DNA of 64,000 bases from an uncultured Spirochaetaceae bacterium (GTDB taxonomy: Bacteria; Spirochaetota; Spirochaetia; Sphaerochaetales; Sphaerochaetaceae). Position numbers and translations under genes: made by a program. The DNA lies in assembly GCA_944389145.1 (NCBI GenBank), contig CALXLH010000014.1:1-64000 (forward strand), given 5' to 3'. The notes under the pieces were generated by a model. The model searched no databases, was not told where the DNA came from, and saw nothing but the letters and a program-made list of their open reading frames with translations. Below are positions 37,770 through 43,140 of the stretch, piece after piece; within the stretch, counting starts at the first letter, position 1; each line of letters opens with the position of its first letter.

Positions 37770-38456
37770 TCACGTCAAATCCGCGTACTTCATCAATATA
37801 CGTACAAGCTCATGCATCCTGGCGGCCGGACACATCGCAGAAGGAGGAGTATCAGGCTCATACCGAGCATATAGCCTTTCAGCCCTCGAAACCGCATCCC
37901 TGATGCCACCAAGCATCTTCTTGAAGATATCCGCATCGGTCTTGCCGTAATCGCAATGCCGCTCAAGAAGGCCAAGATACCCTTCACGCCCTATATTCAC
38001 AATAAGATCCTGGAAATGCAGCAGGAACCACAGTTCTACGCACTCGTTGGACCAGGCAACCCTTATACGCCTGTGATCATTATAGGATTGCGCGCTGAAT
38101 TGGGTATTATCGAAATCATCGGCAGGGAAATCATCCTTATCATAGACGAGCCATATCTCTTCAGCATTGGGGCAAGCCGTGCCTACGGTGGCAACAGCCT
38201 CTTCCAGAAGCCTGAGACAGCTCCTTCCAAAACCTCTGATCACTACCCTTCTCCTTGAAGAATACGCGCGGAATCTCCTGTTTATCATATCTGCGAATCC
38301 CTCAAGATAGCGAACTTCTGTTACCGTCCCTTCTGCTACAATATAAATATATGGAGGGAGAGGATCTATCATAGTCTTCTTCCTCCGGGCCATCTTCTCA
38401 TCTATCCTTTTCTGCAGCTGCTTCCGGTCACCTTTCTTCATTGGCCTGTTGCTCAC
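37770..38456 (-). CDS. rloB: RloB-family protein (AbiLii-like)
   Basis: 228 residues. A basic N-terminus (KKGDRKQLQKRIDEKMARRKK) precedes the RloB core: YIYIVAEGTVTEVRYLEGFADMIN, EIWLVYDKDDFPADDFDNTQF and ARVAWSNECVELWFLLHFQD-like strands. The conserved acidic residues (E in AEGTVTE, DKDD) are those expected of a TOPRIM-like metal site. GTG 38456 overlaps the rloA stop (GTGA), so the two are one unit; an alternative ATG is at 38441. Homologues pair with RloA in restriction loci and with AbiLi in the AbiL abortive-infection system. Antiphage function is inferred from family. Confidence 0.85.
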   Translation of the reverse strand: MSNRPMKKGDRKQLQKRIDEKMARRKKTMIDPLPPYIYIVAEGTVTEVRYLEGFADMINRRFRAYSSRRRVVIRGFGRSCLRLLEEAVATVGTACPNAEEIWLVYDKDDFPADDFDNTQFSAQSYNDHRRIRVAWSNECVELWFLLHFQDLIVNIGREGYLGLLERHCDYGKTDADIFKKMLGGIRDAVSRAERLYARYEPDTPPSAMCPAARMHELVRILMKYADLT

Positions 38457-39703
38457 CCATCAACCTCCCAATCAAGGCCTCTCGCTATATATGGATCCGC
38501 ACCATAATGCCCTTCAAGGTATCGCTTGCTATAGATCTCATCCTTGCGTACCTTCCGGCCCCTCTCATCCGAGAAGGAGACAAGGGAATATAGATTAGAT
38601 GAGTTATCATAATCCTGAGAGCAGAACCATATCTCATCCCGGCGGAACACATCGGGATTCATGTTTACCATATCATGGGATGTCAATATGAGCTGAGCCC
38701 CGTTCTTATTGATAGAAGGATCCGTAAATCCCTCTATGATATACCGCAGTATCTTCGGATGAAGCTTGGCATCAAGCTCATCAGCCAGAAGCAGCCTGCC
38801 AACTTCAAGATATTGATTTATCCTTGCCAGGCAGCTGAACAGCTTTCTCGTGCCGCTCGACTCATCCTCAAGCCTGAGTTCATGCTCCTTTCCGCCGACG
38901 GAATGACGTGTGAATACTTCCCTTATCCTTCCATTCTCATCATATTCAACACGCATACCGGAGATGTTTATATCCATCTCCTGCAGCATCGCCACCATGC
39001 GCTTCTGTATAGCCTCCCCCTTGGGAATCAAAGCCATATGATCCTTTCCCGGCTCATCATAGTTCATGACGGTAGCATAACGGAACCATCCTGCAGCCTT
39101 ATTCACGATCTCGATATCATATGCAGCTGAGATATATGAGATAAGCGGAAAACTACCACGGACCTTATCAAGGGGAAGTCCTTTCAGCTCATTTCCGACC
39201 TCAATACCATCATCCGATCTCTCGAACACGACGCGGGCATTGCGTCTTCCTATCTCACGGCCATACAGGTTCTCCCTGATGATATTCCCATGGATAAGCG
39301 ACAGCTCATACTTGAACTCATAGCCTAGATTTCGATACAGCACCTCGAATTCCGTCGGCTCCTCCGCACACTCTTCGCAGAACTTGAAATAGATATCCTT
39401 CCGTGGCGGAACTGCCTGATACGGCGGTTCATCCTCCCCGACCTCATCAGCAGAGCCTACCTTCCCCGCCTGCATCATGAAGATAGGAACATTCACGAAC
39501 CTCCCAAGGTAATCCAGGGCATCAAGGACAGTAGACTTTCCTCCGCCATTAGGTCCATATATCGATATAACAGGAAGGAAGCGCTGCCCATCCTTATCGG
39601 TTATAAGGCTCTCCTTATGCTCCGAGATCGATTCAGCAAAGAGATCAAGAAATGCCTCACCCTTGAATGATTTATAGTTACTGAATGTGAACTGACAAAG
39701 CAT
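38453..39703 (-). CDS. rloA: RloA-type AAA ATPase (AbiLi-like)
   Basis: 416-residue SMC/OLD-like ATPase. FSNYKSFKG at the N-terminus, Walker A GPNGGGKST at residues 50-58, a signature-like SSGTRKLFSCL, Walker B RLLLADELDAKLHP (near residue 305) and the switch HD in ILTSHDMVNM. No nuclease domain is fused; the effector would be RloB. AGGAGG lies four bases before ATG 39703. It reads towards the his operon and ends before its promoter. Confidence 0.87.
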   Translation of the reverse strand: MLCQFTFSNYKSFKGEAFLDLFAESISEHKESLITDKDGQRFLPVISIYGPNGGGKSTVLDALDYLGRFVNVPIFMMQAGKVGSADEVGEDEPPYQAVPPRKDIYFKFCEECAEEPTEFEVLYRNLGYEFKYELSLIHGNIIRENLYGREIGRRNARVVFERSDDGIEVGNELKGLPLDKVRGSFPLISYISAAYDIEIVNKAAGWFRYATVMNYDEPGKDHMALIPKGEAIQKRMVAMLQEMDINISGMRVEYDENGRIREVFTRHSVGGKEHELRLEDESSGTRKLFSCLARINQYLEVGRLLLADELDAKLHPKILRYIIEGFTDPSINKNGAQLILTSHDMVNMNPDVFRRDEIWFCSQDYDNSSNLYSLVSFSDERGRKVRKDEIYSKRYLEGHYGADPYIARGLDWEVDG

Positions 39704-39809: not shown

Positions 39810-40094
39810 CTAAGAACGTAGAATTCTACGCTTTCTGCAGACACTCAAGGAAGCCGCAACAGCATAAGAAAACATAATACGAGAAGACAGACGGCAAAGT
39901 CCGTCTTCGATTAGATGGGGAGCACAAGACATCCCCTGCTGCAGATAAACGATTCCTTCAAGAAGATTGTCATAACGAATGACAAGGGCTATCCGTGGTT
40001 CGACAGGAACGGCGTGTATTTCATCAACATACAGGACTTCCTGCTCAACAAGGATTCCCTGATCTTCTGAAAATGTAGAATTCTACGTTTTTAG
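39810..40094. mobile_element. Short element bounded by 20-bp inverted repeats, holding an ATPase gene fragment
   Basis: The left end CTAAGAACGTAGAATTCTAC (39810-39829) and the right end GTAGAATTCTACGTTTTTAG (40075-40094) are inverted copies with one mismatch in 20; each includes the palindrome GTAGAATTCTAC. The 285-bp unit contains the last ~50 codons of a DUF4143-type ATPase and the hairpin AGACGG/CCGTCT (about 39884-39906). It has no transposase. This is MITE-like or the scar of a gene cassette. I see no clear target-site duplication. Confidence 0.5.
39915..40070 (+). pseudogene. C-terminal fragment of a DUF4143-type AAA ATPase
   Basis: 51 codons (ATG 39915, in-frame TAG just upstream) whose product contains NDSFKKIVITNDKGYPWFD and VYFINIQDFLL. 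This is the usual C-terminal end of predicted AAA+ ATPases with a DUF4143 domain. The Walker motifs and the rest of the gene are absent, so it is a remnant. It lies within the inverted-repeat unit. Confidence 0.65.
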
Positions 40095-40095
40095 T

Positions 40096-40674
40096 TCAGA
40101 GGATATCCCCCTGCCCCTTATCCATCTTGCTTATCCTATGCTGGAAGATAAGGCTGCTGATCGCAGCGAATACCATCACGGCACCGGATGCGAGGAGGAT
40201 TGCCGCGAAGAGCGTCATCACGACCGAGCCCACAAAGCCTGGGAACATGAAGAGGATGATGGCAAAGAGGAACGAAAGGACAGCCTCAAGCCCTAAGGAA
40301 CCGAACATCATCCCCATCCTGGAAAGCGCCATGCAGTTGATGAAATTGAACACTCCCGTGAGCAGGAAGTCAGCTGCGATGATATAGATGACCACCGTCA
40401 GGAGAAGAGAGGGACGCATGAAGGCAATGAACAGGACCACCAGTCCCAATATGATATTGACCACCGTCTTTATCCCATCGATCGTCCGCACAGCCGGTGA
40501 GAATACCGAGCGGTAGCGCATCAGCGATACAAGCGACCTCACTCCATCGAACACGATATAGATTCCAAGCATGGCCATCACCACGGTCTGGAAATCATCA
40601 GGGCGTACTATCATGTAGATGCCGACGAAGATCATCAGGGCACCTGAAAATGCAAGCGGAAGTACCTTTCTCAT
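40096..40674 (-). CDS. HdeD/DUF308 family membrane protein
   Basis: 192 residues with six hydrophobic segments in three hairpins (LAFSGALMIFVGIYMIV, VVMAMLGIYIVFDGVRSL, VVNIILGLVVLFIAF and so on), the DUF308/HdeD pattern. In E. coli HdeD contributes to acid resistance at high cell density; no such context is here. The start at 40674 (MRKVLPL) has GATAAT ending 6 bases upstream. It diverges from the HAD gene, with 45 bp between the two start codons. Confidence 0.8.
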   Translation of the reverse strand: MRKVLPLAFSGALMIFVGIYMIVRPDDFQTVVMAMLGIYIVFDGVRSLVSLMRYRSVFSPAVRTIDGIKTVVNIILGLVVLFIAFMRPSLLLTVVIYIIAADFLLTGVFNFINCMALSRMGMMFGSLGLEAVLSFLFAIILFMFPGFVGSVVMTLFAAILLASGAVMVFAAISSLIFQHRISKMDKGQGDIL

Positions 40675-40680
40675 ATCATG

Positions 40681-40686
40681 ATTATC
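40681..40686 (-). promoter_or_regulatory. -10 box of the HdeD-like gene, leaderless geometry
   Basis: GATAAT ending 6 bases before ATG 40674; no convincing -35 at 16-18 bp. Confidence 0.4.
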
Positions 40687-40707
40687 CACCAAAGCCACGA
40701 TTTCTGC

Positions 40708-40713
40708 TACCAT
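40708..40713 (+). promoter_or_regulatory. -10 box of the YjjG-like gene, leaderless geometry
   Basis: TACCAT - 6 bp (catcac) - ATG 40720; -35 weak. Confidence 0.42.
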
Positions 40714-40719
40714 CATCAC

Positions 40720-41397
40720 ATGCCAAGACACCTTCTCTTCGACGCAGACGGAACGCTATATGACTTCAAGGCCAGCGAGGAATATGCCCTCTCAAGGCTC
40801 TTCGCCTCTCTGGACATCCCCTACACCTCAGACTTCATCGATATCTACCATCATGAGAATGATATCTGCTGGCACATGTTCGAGCGCGGGGAGATGACGA
40901 TCGATGAGCTTAAAAGCGCACGCTTCAGAATGTTCTTCGAACGCATGAACCTCCCGTACGATGCCATCAATGCAGGAGAGGATTACACAGTATTCCTCGG
41001 AAAAGCTGGCTTCATGCTCCCAGGTGCAACAGAATTCATAAAAACAATAACAAAGGACTACGATGCATCGATCATCACGAACGGCATAGCCTACACGCAG
41101 CATAAGCGCTTCCAGATGACAGATACGGAAAAGTACTTCAGGCACGTATTCATCAGCGAGGAGCTGGGGTATCAGAAGCCGGACAAGCGCTTCTTCGACA
41201 TAGTACTCAGCCGTCTTGCACTCTCTCCCAGTGACTGCCTCGTGATCGGAGACGGGGCGAAGAGCGACATAGAAGGCGCACTAAACGCAGGAATAGAAAG
41301 CATATTCATCAACTTCTACGGCAAGACCTGCCCGGAGGCAGACCACAGCGTCACATCATACGAAGATCTGGAGAAGCTGATCAGAAAGCTATGCTGA
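40720..41397 (+). CDS. YjjG/YfnB-family HAD nucleotidase
   Basis: 225 residues. HAD motif I LLFDADGTLYDF, motif II IITNGIAYTQHKR, motif III EELGYQKPDKRFFD and motif IV VIGDGAKSDIEGALNAG. The overall pattern matches the YjjG group, which dephosphorylates noncanonical pyrimidine nucleotides. The start at 40720 is where homology begins; the upstream ATG lies before the -10. It overlaps the small downstream gene by seven bases. Confidence 0.87.
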   Translation: MPRHLLFDADGTLYDFKASEEYALSRLFASLDIPYTSDFIDIYHHENDICWHMFERGEMTIDELKSARFRMFFERMNLPYDAINAGEDYTVFLGKAGFMLPGATEFIKTITKDYDASIITNGIAYTQHKRFQMTDTEKYFRHVFISEELGYQKPDKRFFDIVLSRLALSPSDCLVIGDGAKSDIEGALNAGIESIFINFYGKTCPEADHSVTSYEDLEKLIRKLC

Positions 41398-42365: not shown

Positions 42366-42505
42366 ATTCAAATTAATATCACATTTCGTGATTTACTAAC
42401 ATTAAAAGTACAAACCAATCAAAAGTCAATCGGGCAATCATCAATGGCAAGGAATTAATAATGCGTTCCGTAGCTGAAAATTTCGCAGATGCGAAAAATT
42501 CCACT

Positions 42506-42922
42506 ATGGACCACAAGATGGAAATAAGCAGGGACCAATACATCAGGCGCTTGGCAGAACAAAGAGGAAATGGATTCATAAAGGTCATCACAGGCCTGAG
42601 AAACGTCAGGCTCGGCTTCACCCAGAGGGTTGGAGTGATTGAGCAGAACTACACCAATGATAAGGGCAGCAGGGCCAAGAGGCAGCTTGAGATCGACTTC
42701 TATGCGACACGCCACGACAAGAGCTTCTATATCCAATGCACACTCTCTCTGAAAGATACAGAAAAGCGGATACAGGAAGAGAGGCCATTCATGCTCATAA
42801 GGGACTCTTATAGGAAGATCATCATAGTCGAGGATGATATAATCCCACACAACGATGAGAACGGCATATTCATCATCGGAATCAGAGACTTCCTGTCAAA
42901 CGAGGATATCCTAGAATATTAA
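42506..42922 (+). pseudogene. Internally deleted DUF4143-type ATPase gene with intact reading frame
   Basis: 139 residues. The first ~30 (EISRDQYIRRLAEQRGNGFI, then KVITGLR) match the N-terminus of DUF4143 ATPases up to the start of Walker A; the next residues jump straight to the C-terminal domain (GVIEQNYTNDKGSRAKRQLE, then IDFYATRHDKSFYIQC, IRDSYRKIIIVEDDI, GIFIIGIRDFL). The GKS/T loop, Walker B and about 250 residues are missing, yet the frame stays open to the natural stop. The palindrome TTTCGC-AGAT-GCGAAA (42481-42496) lies just upstream. ATG 42461 is in frame but would include that palindrome. Confidence 0.6.
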
Positions 42923-42933
42923 AGAGGCACGGC

Positions 42934-43140
42934 CTAAGCCATGCCCCCGCCACGGCTCGCCCATGCTGTATCACCGGTTGCATATCGTCTGCGATATTCC
43001 CTGACAGTATAGGCGTTGAGCCCTGTTATCGTTGCCGTCCTCTTATACCCGTTTCCCTGTTCAAAGAGTTCCAGGCATTCCTTTCTCTTTTCCGTTGGTA
43101 TCCGATGGCGGCTTGTTCCAAGAGACTGTCTATCTCTCAC
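42934..43140 (-). CDS. Solo transposase-type helix-turn-helix protein
   Basis: 68 residues: EKRKECLELFEQGNGYKRTA, then TITGLNAYTVREYRRRYATGDTAW, the HTH of IS3-type OrfA-like proteins. No DDE catalytic part follows on either strand. The start is GTG 43140 with GGAGG five bases upstream, so expression is plausible. Either an insertion-sequence remnant or a domesticated DNA-binding protein. Confidence 0.6.
   Translation of the reverse strand: MRDRQSLGTSRHRIPTEKRKECLELFEQGNGYKRTATITGLNAYTVREYRRRYATGDTAWASRGGGMA

Follow-up and report, generated by a model that had tools for sequence, protein, structure and literature searches.

The 285-bp unit at positions 39810-40094 of the window, by which we mean the whole 64,000-nucleotide stretch of uncultured Spirochaetaceae DNA analysed here, is an internally deleted relic of a PDC-S01 gene that has lost about 1.1 kb and has kept a palindromic element on each side. 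We reach this conclusion from a comparison with congeners: in two of them the same palindromes enclose a complete ATPase, and two others have solo palindromes at those orthologous sites. Our preferred explanation, to which we give a probability of about 0.6, is that the unit is the shell of a PDC-S01 gene and that the elements are the private regulatory addresses of that gene, probably bound by its own product.

A first-pass annotation of this DNA had described inverted ends with one mismatch, each built around a palindrome, and comparison of the window sequences bears this out. The ends at 39810-39829 and 40075-40094 are identical at 19 of 20 positions, and when lengthened to 28 bp (39810-39837 and 40067-40094) they agree at 24 of 28. 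Both elements are palindromic with a 12-bp core, GTAGAATTCTAC. A search of the window with the 20-mer, allowing up to three mismatches, returned four matches, one on each strand for each of the two elements (shuffle expectation 0.00), and within the 2,128,493-base (2.13-Mb) genome the 12-bp palindrome occurs in these two places only. The features discussed here are as follows.

39810-39837, no strand: left palindromic element, core GTAGAATTCTAC at 39818-39829; an element has a like position beside the complete ATPase gene in L007/L055 and L008/L057.
39838-39914, plus strand: putative 5' remnant of the ATPase unit, a promoter-like stretch with possible N-terminal codons at 39877-39888; a tentative assignment from alignment to the G032 5' end and inspection by eye.
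39915-40070, plus strand: C-terminal remnant of a PDC-S01 (AAA_14-DUF4143) ATPase, without the ATPase domain; 46 aa at 63% identity to the ATPase of G032.
40067-40094, no strand: right palindromic element, core at 40075-40086, left arm holding the stop codon of the remnant; in G032 the same core lies 7 bp past the aligned end of the ATPase.
40096-40731, minus strand: DUF308 membrane protein gene, convergent with the relic (Pfam and synteny).
42461-42922, plus strand: second relic, a PDC-S01 gene with an in-frame internal deletion that joins the N-terminal 30 residues to the region of residues 286-417.

The matched residues of the first remnant correspond to residues 386-431, the C-terminus, of the complete 431-aa ATPase of the relative G032, and at the DNA level the two sequences are 73% identical over 145 bp, element included. 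The coding sequence is not intact, and a 51-codon tail open reading frame is all that remains. The earlier statement that the interior holds only the last 50 or so codons needs correction in that the stop codon (40068-40070) lies inside the right element; a few N-terminal codons may perhaps also have been kept.

MITE-like non-autonomous elements are short, internally deleted shells between inverted ends. The window unit is likewise a short, internally deleted shell and has the terminal inverted repeats described above, but it differs from such elements in being present once in the genome, where its core is found at this unit only, and in deriving from the gene of an ATPase, not of a transposase. 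No target-site duplication at the unit was evident by eye.

The second relic lies within 2.5 kb of the first and lacks about 255 residues. A single palindromic element, TTTCGCAGATGCGAAA, is found just upstream (42481-42496). Directly behind this relic, a short open reading frame at 42934-43140 has a weak HTH_23 match and is perhaps a transposase fragment. On the other side, an RloB/RloA pair (37770-39703), scored by PADLOC as AbiLii/AbiLi, lies beside the first relic in what appears to be a small defence neighbourhood. At the site of the window unit in G035, the 3' end of the same DUF308 gene is abutted by another DUF4143-type ATPase gene, which differs from the relic and is apparently full-length; a DUF4143-type ATPase was not seen there by synteny in G004 and G070.

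Complete relatives of the remnant are AAA_14-DUF4143 proteins in all six cases tested (for G032, AAA_14 E 2e-27 and DUF4143 E 5e-13). The PADLOC models for PDC-S01, a single-gene phage-defence candidate, were matched by three of three complete relatives at E values of about 1e-102, and also by all seven DUF4143 genes of the window's own genome and by L122. The complete relatives therefore fit this family, and the window copy is a non-functional shell of it. An AlphaFold model of the G032 ATPase, built from a 15-sequence alignment (pLDDT 89.2, pTM 0.89), has an AAA+ core and a C-terminal alpha/beta domain; in this model, helices 242-253 and 259-271 followed by strands 275-297 are read as a predicted winged helix. 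The best matches among solved structures were two archaeal Walker ATPases, 2qen at Z 18.0 (3.1 A over 267 residues) and 2fna at Z 17.2 (3.6 A over 266 residues); NLR and Orc1/Cdc6 proteins ranked lower. These matches mostly cover residues 1-311, and thus the C-terminal domain is barely tested by them. A sequence search of the PDB with the ATPase gave no relative, and a search of NCBIfam gave no match. Across 113 aligned proteins E355 is invariant, D357 is present in 111 and Q370 in 102, and two positions beyond Q370 the residue is alanine in 73 proteins and threonine in 17. The DUF4143 domain is PD-(D/E)XK-like. A nuclease motif of this kind usually has a catalytic lysine, and its replacement in most of the aligned ATPases clouds the effector step and counts against our preferred explanation.

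The exact 12-mer is present in 13 of 60 relatives. In two of them the situation anticipated by the first-pass annotation is found, a complete DUF4143 gene between a pair of ends: in G032 one core precedes the start of the 431-aa ATPase by 55 bp and the other follows its aligned end by 7 bp, and in G017 the cores lie 56 bp before and 25 bp after a 434-aa ATPase. The remaining single matches mostly lack A/T-rich arms and look like chance by eye, with the exceptions of G019 and G022; in G022, two palindrome copies 64 bp apart are followed by another ATPase. Empty sites in relatives had also been suggested as a check; the orthologous sites in G019 and G071 have one palindrome and lack the gene. 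The G017 site in G071, with a left flank 91% identical, holds a solo palindrome and no ATPase. The G032 site is the gap between the IleRS and tRNA-nucleotidyltransferase genes, which we read in 14 genomes. G032 has the ATPase with its two palindromes there, and G019 has one palindrome preceded by apparent last codons of an ATPase; these kept codons led us to reject G019 as a virgin empty site. The palindrome is absent from this gap in the ten genomes in which the gap was seen in full. G026 and G009 have longer inserts seen at their ends only, and the exact 12-mer is nowhere in either genome. The same gap holds other inserts in L165 (G062) and L167 (G026), the former of which by eye resembles a reversed fragment of a different ATPase type.

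Comparison of the flanks of relatives brought out a second arrangement, in which both copies of an element lie upstream of the gene. A strict ungapped palindrome scan with high thresholds missed most elements, since their arms are imperfect and flanked by A-tracts, and it was dropped for a comparison of direct repeats. A pair was defined as a direct repeat matching at 16 or more of 20 positions within 180 bp upstream of an ATPase gene. By this measure a pair precedes 62 of 116 genus genes, where shuffling predicts 1.6, and 33 of 79 genes from named records of several phyla (expectation 2.8); these totals follow the removal of two of 118 genus genes, with less than 150 bp upstream, and likewise of one of 80 named loci. 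Thirteen of the counted genus genes are other DUF4143 types, six with the repeat, and for these types, notably the genes of the window's own genome, the start codon is approximate, being taken from the stop-to-stop frame. Such a repeat precedes only 9 of 129 genes from the neighbourhood and 3 of 78 further control genes, and the pooled ATPase genes (95/195) differ from either control at p <1e-13 by Fisher's test. The other 100 of the 195 genes have no pair at the 16/20 threshold, which we count against the preferred explanation. The pattern was established mainly for relatives of the G032 protein, which where tested belong to one PADLOC model (PDLC04787).

The distance between paired copies is mostly 72-78 bp and lies close to multiples of the DNA helical repeat. 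Among the 62 genus genes, spacings fall at 73-77 bp (31 genes), 83-86 bp (7), 62-64 bp (4), 40-42 bp (8), 31-33 bp (4) and 23-24 bp (2), with six others, and outside the genus 30 of 33 spacings are 72-78 bp. Spacings in related genes are non-independent; after clustering at 60% identity, the 37 remaining show phasing at 10.5 bp (R 0.51, p about 7e-5), the best period tested being 10.75 bp, and after clustering at 50% the p value for 20 spacings is about 1e-3. Spacings of 47, 50, 67, 70 and 94 bp are out of phase and weigh against the preferred explanation. Additionally, a promoter-like pair of hexamers (at least 10 of 12 positions) lies between the copies in 41 of 78 genes, where 3.2 are expected; in most of them the -10 hexamer is 5-25 bp ahead of the second copy. 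The intact family thus has pairs that straddle a promoter in phase, on one helical face; in the window unit the pair brackets the gene remnant instead. G032 and G017 also have no clear promoter-straddling pair, a further point against our explanation.

These results do not support the elements as general cassette ends, as most paired relatives carry both copies upstream around the promoter and no more than 14 of 185 genes have an upstream-downstream match of at least 17/20. We also rejected a third, downstream copy as a general feature, since it is present at 16/20 or better in 3 of 89 genes with a promoter pair. Two loci have more copies than usual. At L187 1470-1882 (Succinivibrio dextrinosolvens DSM 3072) the ATPase is preceded by 5.6 tandem copies of a 74-bp unit, an amplification of the segment with element and promoter, and at L219 two more element-like sequences, one inverted, lie behind the ATPase stop codon.

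The elements are private to their genes. Within 16 genomes, none of 90 ordered comparisons between paralogues gave an element match of 16/20 or better. The first-pass annotation had proposed that occurrence of the 20-mer here only would refute its reading. The 20-mer does occur only here in its own genome, yet this test is too strict, given that the private element differs from one ATPase gene to the next. To follow how elements change, we compared 554 gene pairs at 55-96% protein identity. The similarity of elements between genes was 12.6/20 at 55-65% identity (327 pairs), 12.9 at 65-75% (85 pairs), 15.7 at 75-85% (46 pairs) and 17.1 at 85-96% (96 pairs), while agreement between the two copies within a gene stayed near 18/20 throughout the range. 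The genes were chosen for having a pair, which favours the within-gene value and leaves the between-gene fall unaffected. Since within-gene agreement is steady while between-gene similarity falls, both copies of a gene turn over together.

In the intact PDC-S01 subgroup (PDLC04787), about half of the genes have their own element twice, on the same face of the helix and around the promoter. The most economical model that we can propose for it is a self-contained single-gene unit that regulates itself. The gene's own AAA+ winged-helix product would probably bind both copies, as an oligomer or through a loop, and once bound it would keep the promoter, and the gene, quiet. A trigger that alters nucleotide state or occupancy would then release the promoter; the gene may have a role in defence. 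In the version represented by the window, G032 and G017, the second copy lies just behind the stop codon, and the pair brackets both promoter and gene; it is for this reason that the pair of this subtype looks like cassette ends. We looked for covariation between the element and columns of the protein alignment, and the recognition helix was not enriched for it (mean partial correlation 0.0005). This counts against the model, and we therefore make no claim as to which part of the protein reads the site and regard the ATPase as a putative binder.

An alternative is that the palindromes are recombination or transposition ends at which a cassette excises or inserts, leaving a solo palindrome behind. 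The genes between two palindromes in G032 and G017 and the single palindromes at the same sites in G019 and G071 are what such a process would leave. Furthermore, flanking repeats at E<1e-3 are found at 26 of 188 ATPase genes and 5 of 236 control genes (p 5e-6), although the controls come from the genus and the window only and leave the wide set unmatched. By eye, about ten of the 26 are copies of the element, and the others are longer. At L250 the last codons of the gene upstream, 196-127 bp ahead of the ATPase start, recur over 69 bp at 97% identity 1-70 bp past the ATPase stop, which looks as though insertion of the unit had produced a long target duplication; the relatives searched for this site gave no match. 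Other long flanking repeats occur at L189 (74 bp, 88%), L226 (52 bp, 96%) and L070 (104 bp, 88%). We did not accept long target duplications as a rule, given that within the genus, once the elements are set aside, the rate does not clearly exceed that of the controls, and that for the wide set there are no matched controls. As a separate observation, the left flank of L063 (query 2234-2352) contains a 60-115 bp stretch found in many genus genomes at 75-95% identity and mostly ending near the same base, which is a dispersed repeat beside the ATPase gene.

The clearest view of gain and loss comes from the site of the G064 gene. In eight species (G033, G007, G028, G009, G023, G069, G065 and G015) the two flanking convergent genes are adjacent and the gene is absent; G029 and G006, in which one flank only was matched, were left out of this count. 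G064 has a 1450-bp insert at this site, running from 153 bp before the ATG to about 4 bp past the ATPase stop codon, with a left boundary that by eye is the outer arm of the first element. Given these boundaries, the insert consists of element, promoter, element and gene. The PDC-S01 unit, from its first element to its stop codon, is gained and lost whole, and where this was observed its position is behind a neighbour's stop codon. Empty sites were not found for six of seven loci searched at the sensitivity used, and one further locus gave imprecise synteny only.

The earlier idea that these ATPases move as cassettes is supported with respect to movement of a discrete unit, but not with respect to the elements as general cassette ends. 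Indeed, at the cleanest empty site the right boundary lies just past the stop codon without an element, no transposase or integrase was seen in the G064 insert compared, both copies lie upstream in most paired relatives, and the apparent ATPase codons before the solo palindrome of G019 indicate decay rather than clean recombination. We consider it doubtful that the palindromes are recombination ends. The solo palindromes of G019 and G071 are compatible with the bracketing arrangement aiding movement, with the reservation that G019 reads as decay. One might go further and suppose that PDC-S01 is a self-addressed single-gene mobile unit, whose AAA+/PD-(D/E)XK-like protein would recognise its own palindrome both for promoter control and for marking or driving insertion and loss of the unit without a transposase, and whose addresses would diversify so that many copies could share a genome without interference; we offer this as speculation and think it rather improbable.

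It is similarly improbable that the elements are operators of another host regulator and not of the ATPase. Their operator-like position and phasing would suit such a regulator, as would the negative result for recognition-helix covariation. A shared regulator, however, predicts a shared site, and paralogues share none; moreover, the element goes with its gene from site to site. Intrinsic terminators or RNA hairpins at gene ends are scarcely credible, for although the window elements lie near gene ends and have A-tracts and T-tracts, the stems are A+T-rich, termination does not need gene-specific, jointly changing sequences, and the first copy would escape transcription with the gene in most paired genes, where it is upstream of the promoter-like sequence.

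Private regulatory addresses, as we prefer to read the elements, would have a partial precedent in RptR, a self-repressing defence regulator for which the portions available to us describe a separate 9-kDa repressor, a 6-bp site (TAGCTA) conserved across bacteria and repression with two intact sites as sufficient (PMC12255303). On that partial account, the two systems are alike in having repeated palindromic sites in a defence promoter, with a binder encoded at the locus for RptR and a putative one here. They differ in that PDC-S01 has no apparent separate regulator and has its own site for each gene, in contrast to the one conserved site of RptR. According to the accessible portions of two further papers, PDC-S01 is the fourth most abundant family of defence candidates across prokaryotes (PMC12988326) and, in genomes from the bovine rumen, the individual locus found most often (PMC13356809); those portions mention no paired elements for PDC-S01 and give no mechanism for it. 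A description of the elements was likewise not found in the literature searched on DUF4143, AAA_14, COG1373 and PDC-S01, a scope that lies apart from the paper introducing PDC-S01. The private palindromic tags that many PDC-S01 genes carry in pairs appear to be a little-noticed pattern in a very common but uncharacterised family of candidate phage-defence ATPases.

A private paired site before about half of the genes surveyed means that each such gene names the DNA that its product should bind. Paralogues whose proteins are about 60% identical but whose sites are unrelated form a natural specificity panel. Together, the paired private sites make the copy-number expansion and turnover of PDC-S01 testable.
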